Part shown: piece after piece, positions 19,855 through 25,500 of the stretch
Layout: every line of letters begins with the position of its first letter
Numbering within the stretch: the first letter of the stretch is position 1
From: Melampsora larici-populina 98AG31
Lineage: Eukaryota; Basidiomycota; Pucciniomycetes; Pucciniales; Melampsoraceae
Assembly (NCBI RefSeq): GCF_000204055.1
Contig: NW_006768766.1
Location: forward strand, 838,706 to 902,705
Reading direction: 5' to 3'
DNA length: 64,000 bases
The notes under the pieces: generated by a model
Databases searched by the model: none
What the model was told of the DNA's origin: nothing
The model's input: only the letters and a program-made list of their open reading frames with translations
Program-made: the position numbers and the translations under genes

Positions 19855-19863
19855 ATTGATTAA

Positions 19864-19933
19864 GGGATCGTAGAAATTTACGATCATCCATTTGCGGTCT
19901 TTAAAGACCGGAAAGCATGATGACCGCAAAAGT
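19864..19933 (+). repeat. Left terminal inverted repeat of the Mutator-like element
   Basis: Starts GGGATCG and contains ACGATCATC, TTTGCGGTC, the 14-bp palindrome GGTCTTTAAAGACC (19896-19909) and GATGACCGCAAAA. It matches the complement of 25422-25491 at 58 of 70 positions without gaps. Confidence 0.9.
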
Positions 19934-20617
19934 ATAATATTCCCGGGTGAAAAGTCAAATTTACAGTCAAACCCTAATTGAGAATGTCCGCAAAAAAAAA
20001 AGTCGTAAAAAAAAGTACTGAAAATTACCACCCTGTACCTAGAATATTTAATTTTGCGAGCGAACTTTTACGTACCATGATGATTGCAAATGATTTACGT
20101 TGCAAAAGTACACGATTTGTCCCAATTTGACACTTTCACAGCTCACGTCTCACAGACATCGAAAGTCACCGCAAAACGAACGACTCAAAAGTATACAATC
20201 TCGCACGAAATAATTAATTTCGCGGTCAAAGACCTTACCGATCCAACGGATTGATGAAGGACATTACCAATCCAGGACCAAGGATTGACGCCTTTTGCAA
20301 TAATTGCCAACCACGTTCCATGAGAAGTGAAGTAATAATGCCATTCCATGAAGAAAGAGAAGCACCCCGTCCTTCTATTTTCATTTTATTTATCTCATTC
20401 ATCAATCTTACCGTAATCATCAGTTGACAATATCAACTTTCCTACTGTATCGAAAGCTTTCGAAAATATCCAGAACTTACACCTTCTTTCCACTTATCGT
20501 TTCATTTCAACTAATTCGTAATCTTATCGTATCTCAACTAATTCGACATTATCTTATAATCATAATCACTCATTAATTTTACATCTCATCAATTTTACAA
20601 CTTAATTATTCACAAAC

Positions 20618-23600
20618 ATGCGCAAAAAACAACTGAGTGACAGTAGTAGCGACTCTAGCCGGAACTCTGACTTACAAGACGAAAATGATGATACACATGT
20701 ATCCGACTCTGACGCTGAAGTAGAAGACAAACACCAATCTGACGCTGAAGTTCAAGATGAACAAGAATACGACACTTATGAACAAGACGCAAAAGAATCT
20801 GATGTGTATGAAGAAGACGACAATTACGAAGATGAAGAACCCGAAATCTCAGACGATGATCATGAGTCTCCACATAAGAAAAGGATTGTATCCAATTCTT
20901 CAACTTCGTCTAAGCCTCAGAAAAACAAAATCAATTCGTCAAATTCTTCCACCTTGACAAAGCCAAAGAAACCAGGGAAGAAGACTTTCGGCCTACCTCT
21001 TGACCGCACTTCATTCAAAACCTTCATAGACGAGAACAATACTCTCGACAATCAAGGTTATCCCCTATTTCCCAATGGAAATACTGTGTTTGTGAAGCAA
21101 CCAGGCCAAGCGAAAATTGTCAATTGGGGCACTTTCGGATTTGCTTATACTTCTTCTGGAGGTAAAAGCAAAGGCCCGGCGGACTGGAGAACAGTAAGGT
21201 ACACTTGTTTAGGTGTCATAGTCTGCGAAAGCCTACATTGTGAATATCTTGGCTCGCCTGCGACAGCAAGTGCCAAAAGATCCGAATGGATGAGCACGTG
21301 AGTTCATAAGTTTTCTTTTCAATTCTTACCATCAATGTTTTAGTTTTTGATATTTTCCTACTGTGATGTGATTTCCGATCTGACTGATGATCTTCCCTAC
21401 ATTTATCGTTTGTATATGTTAGAACACAGAAATGTCCAGCTGCAAGATGCTCTGGCAATCTTCGTTACTTGAAATGTACCAACACTTTGTGTCGATTGGA
21501 CGAACATGAAAGTGGTTGGGGAATTATACGACACTCCGGATTCCATCAGCATCAATGGCCTCGACGTGGCAAGCCTGATAAATTGTCTTTGGAGAAATTT
21601 GGCAAACGTGTGGTCGAAAATCCGGGAGTAGGTCCTTTACAAAACAAGGTATGATCTTTACCTTATCTATTTAGTCATATATGAATAACTGACTACAACT
21701 TACCTCAAATCAGGTTGGTAGAGCTCCTGCAGGAAAGCAGGAGATTGTCACTGATACGAATATCCATGGGGCTTTTGGAAATCTACATCGAACAGGTTAT
21801 TATCGACGCAAGCTCCTTGAAGCCGCTGGTGTAATCCCCGTAAAAAAACTTCCAGGCGCGGCTGATAACTTCATCTTGGATATGGACCATTGGGCCGAGT
21901 AAGTAGTTGTCAAAATATATTTCTTACTTAATCAGTATATTAGCATTAATATAAATGAAAAATATTTTCCAGGCGCGGTTTGACTGTGGTATCTGTGTCC
22001 ATGAAGCGGCACAATATGCACCTTACATTTCAAACCGAATGGATGCAACAGCAGCTTTTGGCTCGAGACGAAAATCAACGGGTTCATGGAGGCGGCCTAC
22101 TCTCTGACGTCACTTACAAGTTTTTCAAGAATGGGTACCTTCTATCAACTTCAATGTACCACGAGGATCTGCGACGCTGGATTCCTATACAACTCACATG
22201 GCTCAAAGGACTTAGTGAAGAACACTACGCCTCACACTTCCGTACGCTTATGAAGCAAATGAAGCGCGCCGATGTGACTGCAACCGAATGCGATACACTG
22301 GTCCGTCAAGTAGTAGATTTTTCTGTGGCGCAGAAAAATGGATTTATTAAGGCGTACATGAAGGTCTTCAAAGAGAATGATCGTGCCGTTGCTCTTTCTA
22401 AACTTCAAGGGTGTCATGAACACTTTCGAGCACAGGTGACACGTGTTAAGCGCAACCGGGCTATCATACACCCAAATGATGAGGTATGTAATATTTTTGT
22501 CTTATCACGTTTTACTTTAAACTTACTACTTTGTTTGAATCTGCTTGTAAAGGAATCTTTTGAATTACAAGCATCTTCTCTTTTGAAAGCAGACCGGCCA
22601 GGCGGACTCACTTTTGATCAGAAACTGGCGAAAATGATCAAGGAATTTCCAAAGGCCAAACGATGGCTTGAGTGGTGGAAAGCTTCGGACGTCAAGTCGT
22701 TGCTTTTCAAATCCAGACTCAAACAGATTGACGATGATGGTCTTTGTGACAATATCATGCCTACAACCACTAATGCACAGGAGTCTTTGCATAGAGTTTA
22801 TTACATGATATCGTGCGTGTTTGTCATTTTTTTTTTCAATTTATTCTAATTTAATTTTTTTTTCATCTGGCAGCAAAGGAAACTGCACAATACAAATTGG
22901 TATTGTGCAGTTATATGCGTTGGTGGCCTGTCTCGAAAGAGACCACGAGGACCGGCGTCGCGGCGTTCCAATAGTATATGGTGATGAGGCTAAGAATTAC
23001 AAAAAAGTTGCTCAGCTTTTAGGATGGGCGAAGAAGTCTCAAAAGCAGCGCGAAGCAAAAAATGATGGAAGACCACCAGATACAACAGATGCTTTGTTAG
23101 GACGACCCAAGAAACTTGGACGGCCTAAAGGGTCTTTAAATGTCGACCGCAACCCTGTTACTACGTACCAAGGTTTTACCGCTTCCACAACGCCAGGTCG
23201 ACAATTTAGGTGCTGGCTTGACTCCATGACAGAATGCTTATATGCTATTCATACGCCCGTTTGGTACACTAAGTCCAGCGGCAAATCAGACCACATATAC
23301 TCTAAGCTGTTGACTCTCTTTTCGTCCAGGACCACCTGGGAATTGGGTCAGGCAGGAAAGATACGAGGCATCCTTTCAAATGGCCAAAATACGCTCCACG
23401 CCGCGATCCAACAACGATTTCCGGGAAGTTTTCTGAATGATCAATACGCGTCTGCTGATCAATTCTTCAGCGGAATATTTGATTGTGAAACTCGACCCAA
23501 ACAGCCAGCATCACCAGCTATTACTCAAACTTTGTTTCGTATTGGCCTCAGAAGAACTTATACTTGTCCAAAGAACGAGGATCATGTATTAGTTGAAGTA

Positions 23601-24897
23601 TCACAACTTAACTCTATTATGTTATTGCACGAGAATTTTGACGATGATACTGCTTATTCTGATGCGGCTCAAGTGCTCCATGAATGGGCTACCACCGGCC
23701 ACCATCAATCTTCACAACAATATTGTAAGACCTGCAAGACGAAGGAAAATCCTCATGCCCAGCCTTACGAAGCATTCCACACCAAACTGTGTCTTGATAC
23801 CCCACCTCCTCATCTACATATACAAATTGATGTCGCATATCTTCATCAAACCAATACCTCCGAAGCATTCAAGATGATGAAAGAATGCGACTTACCTTAT
23901 GAAATGATACTCGACGGTACTATTTACTTGATGCGCGCTCGGGGTTTTTGGGATGGGAGTCATTACTGGTGTCAAGTTGTTCGTACAGTTGGCAGTCTCA
24001 CCGGTGTATGGCGACACAATGATATAGAAAATGCGGGAATAGCCACATTGCTATCTACTGATTTGAAGTCAATTGGTGGACAAATACCTTATACATCTTG
24101 GGTTATGTATTCCCAAGCGCCGACGTCAAAAGAAACCTTGATCATCAAGACTGCGACAGCCAAAATCAACCATTCTTTAGGGCAAAAGGAGGTACTTGTT
24201 CGACCATTTTCACAACCGGTTGATGAGGAGATTGAAGAACGTGCAGAAGAAGAACAAGGTCAAATAATTTTTCACCTTTATTAATTCTAATATATTGATC
24301 TTTTTTCTTTCTTTGTCCTTTGTCTTTCATTTAGCTGAGAATGATCAGACTGAATGCGACAATGAAGATGTCCCTTTGGCAAACAAGGAAAATCTAACAA
24401 ACAAAAACAAACAAAAAGTTAAGCGTGAAACAGTTGATGATATTGCTCCCTTGGCGAAGAGGAAAAAGTTAACAAAAAACAAATCAAAACTAGGTAAGCA
24501 TCTTAATTTGTTTTTCTGATGTTCTGCAATGCTTATTTTGCTTCTTCTCTTCTTTAAATATTGTGAAGATGAAGATGTCGATGTTCCGTTGGCAAAGAGT
24601 AAGAATTTAAACAAACGTAACCGTGGTAGACCGAGGAGGATACGCGAAAAAGAGGAGGAAGTGAGACTGAAACAACAAGTTGAAGACCAACAGGTAGGAG
24701 TTGTTTTGAAGAAAGAAGACGTAGAGTTGGTAGATAAAGGTGCCAAAAGAGCTAGAGGTTGGAAGGGATGGGCGATTGTGGAAGAAGATGAGGAAGCGGA
24801 GGTGGTGGCAAAGGACGAGGAGGAGGTCGACATCGAAGAGCCTCATGGTCATGGTAACGCACGGAAGTCCAAGCGTACCAGGTGTAAGAGATCGTAA
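20618..24897 (+). CDS. Mutator-like transposase with GCM-type zinc finger and C-terminal ubiquitin-specific-protease-like domain
   Basis: Exons by eye: 20618-21297, 21423-21648, 21714-21898, 21973-22483, 22553-22812, 22874-24258, 24335-24493, 24569-24897. All junctions are GT-AG and phases agree, giving 1244 residues. Residues 1-85 are acidic. A WRKY-GCM1-type zinc finger follows: C197, C203, C208, C231, C236, C245, then H268 and H270. Candidate DDE residues are D409 (SDVTYKFF), D479 (VVDFSVAQ) and E611 (NAQESLHR). An AT-hook pair (GRPKKLGRPKG) lies at about 697-707. A C19-like domain then shows a Cys box (C734 in FRCWLDSMTECL), a CxxC, a His box (H984 in GSHYWCQVVR) and WRHND at 1000-1004 before a WVMYSQ strand. 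The acidic/basic tail has a second AT-hook (RGRPRR). It probably cuts and joins its own element. The protease-like role is inferred from motif order only. Confidence 0.82.
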
Positions 24898-25421
24898 CAA
24901 CGTATTTTATTTATTTTATATAGTCTCTCCTTTCATGTTTCATTTGGCCCCTTTCTTATCTTCTAATTTTTTGTTTTGTCGTCACTCATTCATGTTCCTT
25001 TTTTGATTCATATTTCACTCATTGTTTGTGTTTTGTTCTTTATTTTCAGTTTTTCTTCTTGAATTTTGTTTTTGTTACGTAATACACCAATGTCCCTTTT
25101 GACGACTGTAAAATTTTGATCACAAAATTATATTTTGCGGCCACTACTCTTCACTTTTGCGAGGCAATTTTTTTACGATTTTTCACAGTCTATATGTCAC
25201 GTAAAATATTGATTGCAAAAATATATATGACTTCAAAATTTTTCACTTTTACGTGCTTTCTCATTTACGGATCATAAAGTCCGCAAAACAAAGCTCACAA
25301 AATTGTAGTAAGTGGCAACCGTGGCTCAATTTTACGGTCAATTTTTTACAATCTTTTTTTTTGCGAGCTTGCGAAAATGAAGAATGCTTGTAAAAAAAAA
25401 AGAAATTCCCGCGTAAGATTG

Positions 25422-25491
25422 AATTTTACGGTCATCAAGCTTTCCGGTCTATAATGACCGCAAATTGATGATCGCAAATTCCTCACACCCC
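25422..25491 (-). repeat. Right terminal inverted repeat of the Mutator-like element
   Basis: Read on the minus strand it starts GGGGTGTG and contains GCGATCATC, TTTGCGGTC, AGACCGGAAAGC and GATGACCGTAAAA, as in the left arm. The target duplication ATTGATTAA follows immediately at 25492-25500. Confidence 0.9.
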
Positions 25492-25500
25492 ATTGATTAA

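Follow-up and report, generated by a model that had tools for sequence, protein, structure and literature searches.

A probable MuDRF-type transposon of Melampsora larici-populina with a predicted ubiquitin-specific-protease fold in its transposase

Our analysis covers a 64,000-nucleotide stretch of the genome of the rust fungus Melampsora larici-populina 98AG31 (contig NW_006768766.1; this whole stretch is the window, and all coordinates are window coordinates). A transposon at 19864-25491 is probably a MuDRF-type Mutator-like element (MULE) that encodes, within a single protein, a cysteine protease domain with the fold of the ubiquitin-specific proteases (USPs). These data support the original prediction, made from the letters of the window, of a Mutator-like transposon with a USP-like domain on its transposase. 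Judging by sequence comparison, family members from two rust genera keep the USP-transposase fusion. The MuDRF class is already known; we found no report of a USP domain in it.

The transposon gene starts with an ATG at 20618 on the plus strand, which carries every coding feature given below, and runs through eight exons, separated by seven GT-AG introns, to a stop at 24895-24897. Splicing the model bears out a reading frame open throughout its 1244 codons. From N- to C-terminus, the protein comprises an acidic tail, a GCM-type DNA-binding domain, a putative DDE (RNase H-like) core, an AT-hook-like linker, the USP domain, and a charged tail that holds another AT-hook-like motif. Exon 1 (20618-21297) encodes the acidic, Ser-rich N-terminus and the start of the GCM domain, exon 2 (21423-21648) more of that domain, and exon 3 (21714-21898) precedes the DDE core in exon 4 (21973-22483) and exon 5 (22553-22812). 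Exon 6 (22874-24258) encodes the linker and, by the predicted structure, the entire USP domain, followed by exon 7 (24335-24493) and exon 8 (24569-24897), which holds the charged tail and the stop. Exons 1 and 4 are identical to the annotated protein P0029 (MELLADRAFT_88994) at 226/226 and 170/170 residues; the other exons are those of the spliced model.

The GCM-type domain spans residues 123-326 (20984-21785, introns within the span) and corresponds to the WRKY-GCM1 zinc finger that had been predicted. The candidate catalytic residues of the transposase, D409 (22106-22108) and D479 (22316-22318) in exon 4 and E611 (22781-22783) in exon 5, are all present in the spliced model. They are conserved in alignment A6: the first is D in 31/31 rows, the second D in 30/31 with one N, and the third E in 29 of the 31 with one V and one gap. 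Two stretches that we take to be AT-hook-like, GRPKK-L-GRPKGS in the linker (23100-23135, its second GRP invariant in alignment A5) and RGRPRR in the C-terminal tail (24622-24639, read in the spliced model), account for the predicted AT-hooks. Foldseek comparison of the N-terminal predicted model with known structures gave no match at E <= 0.001.

The USP (peptidase C19) domain occupies about residues 716-1038 (23157-24125). Structure prediction for the C-terminal part of the protein, a check proposed with the original prediction, returned a model with a USP fold by structure comparison. The top two Foldseek matches to the predicted domain are USP18, whose structure was solved with ISG15, and then USPL1, whose structure was solved with SUMO, while USP15, USP12, USP46, USP8 and USP30 stand equal to or above USP18 when matches are ranked by Z. 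Compared with these five and USP2, the domain shows ~14% identity, lacks the Asn at Cys-5 and is fused to a transposase. One sister copy, L028, exceeds the curated cut-off of Pfam UCH; this locus stacks two USP-exon matches (L028:2672-5527), and it is the downstream one that passes. At E <= 10, UCH matched 3/22 exon homologues, and a Pfam search of the window's own exon 6 gave no UCH match; low-scoring Pfam matches such as RecG_wedge were rejected as below the cut-off. The UniRef label of a relative, P0015, begins "USP domain-", so the domain has been annotated automatically, although this protein has no Pfam UCH match at E <= 10. NCBIfam returned two families on the 22 exon homologues (best E 0.045), neither relevant, and PDB sequence searches and a profile comparison with host USP fragments yielded nothing useful. 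The UCH_1 profile gave 10 matches, none on the transposon family's loci when compared by eye. Ulp1 (C48), OTU and VTD have no entry among the structure and profile matches listed, an absence that does not exclude them.

Within the domain, the residues of a C19 peptidase occur in the order originally described. The candidate nucleophile C734 lies in the Cys box CWLDS (23211-23213) and the candidate general base H984 in the His box HYWCQ (23961-23963); both are present in 22/22 Melampsora exons and, in alignment A3, in every row with a letter at the position (26/26 with 3 gaps and 27/27 with 2 gaps, respectively). Between them, a CxxC in the fingers region (C905 and C908; 23724-23735) is conserved in 27/28 and 26/28 rows with a letter in A3. 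After the His box, host USP fragments of the same genome read W-x-x-[FL]-[DN]-D and the transposon family reads W-x-[HNAYF]-[ND]-[DEN]. Because the transposon motif is one residue shorter than that of the host, we take the first residue of its [ND]-[DEN] pair as the catalytic Asn/Asp, so that N1003 (24018-24020) would be the third catalytic position; this column holds 13 N and 14 D among the 27 rows of A3 with a letter. The Cys, the His and the Asn/Asp remain unchanged in A5 even in sequences that are only 34% identical to the window copy. Three Cys of the fingers zinc site are conserved in A3, and the fourth ligand position is variable. The Asn at Cys-5, present in host USP L049, is lost in the family (Gly in 17 and Thr in 3 of 20 sequences); presumably this residue has a role in USPs, but we do not regard it as a strict requirement for membership. 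Two other host sequences, which we read as Sad1/USP39-like (L046) and PAN2-like (L047), are inactive-looking USP relatives and serve as a contrast.

Those pairs of copies that allowed scoring indicate purifying selection on the USP domain. The ratio of replacement to synonymous substitution (dN/dS) is 0.09-0.16 in 8/13 pairs and 0.02-0.11 over the adjoining linker where finite; with dS mostly around 1 or higher, these values are approximate. In four of the remaining pairs dS is saturated, and the pair L011/L012 has 1.2% replacement with no synonymous change.

The domain recurs across the genome. An exon-6 query found at least 112 matching stretches at at least 90 loci, a lower bound with 92/180 candidates scored, and a query from a distant clade gained further loci. 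Fifty-four of 58 exon-6 rows examined span at least 420/461 residues in one stretch, and 32/54 have no stop. From 137 DDE-exon rows we also took the first 95, most but not all near full length, and found a same-strand USP match no more than 6 kb away at 79 of them, 68/79 at a distance of 374-601 bp. Among the other 16 DDE loci, nine have a USP match to the distant-clade query (compared by eye), six, read directly, retain the USP exon in whole or in part, some apparently truncated, and one is 2385/3001 N. Truncated copies exist, and no verifiable USP-free sister was found among the 95. Rust proteins made up 12/12 and 40/40 matches in two protein searches, several of the 40 being too short for both parts; a third gave 14 matches, 6 of them named rust proteins. 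USP and DDE distances co-vary over 21 proteins (Pearson 0.93, Spearman 0.70, a correlation inflated by kinship), as expected from one old acquisition.

The ends of the element were defined by direct comparison. A perfect target-site duplication, ATTGATTAA, lies at 19855-19863 and 25492-25500, confirming the predicted 9 bp; the base G follows both copies, so the duplication could equally be 10 bp long. Immediately inside are terminal inverted repeats at 19864-19933, starting GGG, and 25422-25491, both supported by repeat search and end comparison; like the duplication, they are assigned no strand. As claimed for 70-bp ends, 58/70 outermost positions match without gaps, and a separate repeat search of the window gave inverted arms of 60 nt at 88%. 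The element thus combines terminal inverted repeats with a duplication inside the 8-11 bp range that a passage of PMC6446971 gives for MULEs. Scans of the window with Rfam (gathering threshold) and for tRNAs found nothing.

We surveyed 20 other copies for the same marks, each as a 10-kb locus. Eight (L013, L014, L017, L019, L021, L023, L025 and L027) have inverted ends starting GGG or GG and are flanked by a perfect duplication of 9 or 10 bp; the marks of the window element are therefore more than chance. Arms are present without a duplication in L020 and L022, and with only one-mismatch duplication candidates in L011 and L024. No arms were found in seven of the 10-kb loci (L009, L010, L012, L015, L016, L018 and L026), some of whose ends possibly lie outside the locus. 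An apparent duplication at L028 was discarded because its ends do not match.

We consider the domain likely to be an active, ubiquitin-removing protease. It is unlikely to be inactive, with a USP fold retained for binding or as a scaffold. USP39/Sad1 and PAN2 are inactive USP-fold proteins, and by reading the same genome holds relatives of both; the loss of the Asn at Cys-5 and the partial zinc site point the same way. However, the invariance of Cys, His and Asn/Asp in A5 argues for catalysis, and the Sad1-like L046 has, by reading, no Cys at its position. Less probable still is a working protease for SUMO or another ubiquitin-like modifier, as in human USPL1 or USP18. Those two proteins lead the Foldseek matches, and Ulp1-type proteases occur on plant MULEs and Ginger transposases, but the Z ranking places five other USPs at or above USP18, and specificity is not readable from fold rank.

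Two further explanations concern the element as a whole. P0029, the database protein at this locus, is identical to our spliced model for 621 residues, then uses another acceptor and frame (22812-22912) and ends at residue 641 without the USP part, as might be expected if the fusion were an accidental or recent event confined to the window copy, or if two genes had been wrongly spliced together. The original prediction had likewise allowed that copies lacking the domain would mark an accident. Instead, at least 90 loci carry it, a USP match accompanies most DDE matches, and Melampsora and Puccinia database proteins continue in frame across the DDE-USP junction; we therefore rejected a mis-spliced or chance fusion, which is very improbable. 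Domestication by the host as a GCM/USP factor that has lost transposition is also improbable: a near-identical sister was not seen, the closest left end being 90% and the closest exon 6 85% identical among the matches listed, but the window copy and 8/20 others have ends and a perfect duplication, and the many copies are dispersed and diverged, with stops in 22/54 near-full ones.

If the domain acts as a ubiquitin-removing protease, it would be brought to the element's ends together with the transposase, where it could act in cis to strip the modifier from the transposase or from the complex that carries out transposition. Such removal might slow degradation or disassembly of either. We tentatively favor this as the most likely purpose, while a local action on chromatin or repair proteins, which would lose their ubiquitin where the element excises or inserts, ranks next and is doubtful. 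More broadly, it is possible, at somewhat less than an even chance, that one ancient acquisition gave rust MuDRF transposons a working USP deubiquitinase that they need in order to transpose or to evade the protein quality control of the host. If so, this would be the first family-wide C19-MULE transposase in the literature searched, and a natural self-deubiquitinating transposase.

MuDRF elements, as described in passages of Cantu et al. 2011 (PMC3164196), combine a GCM DNA-binding domain and a DDE transposase in one protein, make 9-bp duplications, and are reported from Puccinia striiformis, P. graminis, M. larici-populina, three Agaricomycetes and Naegleria. The window element likewise has a GCM domain on its transposon protein and a 9-bp duplication in a rust fungus. 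The words protease, peptidase, USP and ubiquitin are absent from the main text of that paper, and ubiquitin, OTU, Ulp1, protease and peptidase from the main text of a MULE survey (PMC6446971). Among the titles and abstract openings listed from the open-licence literature, none suggested that a MULE carries a USP domain, although a 2006 paper on WRKY-GCM1 may mention one.

Related proteases are known from other transposons, at least in the passages cited here. Plant Kaonashi/VANDAL elements (PMC13317346) share the Mutator superfamily and a cysteine protease of a ubiquitin-like system, but theirs is Ulp1 rather than C19, and in the Arabidopsis case it lies in the VANC-type gene, one of the element's three. 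Ginger1 (PMC2836005) has a C-terminal ubiquitin/SUMO-type cysteine protease on its transposase, which is however Gypsy-integrase-like and paired with OTU or Ulp1. Helitrons encode VTD and OTU deubiquitinases, with VTD activities reported (PMC9741609), but are rolling-circle elements whose protease families are not USP. A Trichomonas vaginalis protein joins Peptidase C19 to a transposase domain, Transposase_11, of another family; the passage (PMC2836005) treats a single protein, with no family-wide or structural analysis. The earlier statement that Ulp1 and OTU domains occur in some transposons agrees with these sources.

Because ubiquitin- or SUMO-type proteases occur in herpesviruses and in several transposons that are not related to one another, namely plant MULEs, Ginger and Helitrons (passages of PMC13317346, PMC2836005 and PMC9741609), the modifier system may limit mobile DNA. 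Here the protease class differs, being USP, and two rust genera conserve the domain as part of the transposase; the role of transposase deubiquitination in transposition is therefore testable by a single catalytic mutation. These sequence comparisons suggest that tag removal is part of how the elements move or persist. Among fungi, rusts have some of the genomes richest in transposons (a passage of PMC12210899), and a database gene model that drops the USP half means that the domain may be overlooked in annotation.

Individual copies show later changes. In the close copies L009, L010 and L012, successive matches in or before the DDE region are separated by gaps of ~1.6-2.9 kb, which are probably insertions. 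L011 and L012 are near-identical copies on separate contigs whose USP domains have few replacement and zero synonymous differences, suggesting a recent duplication.

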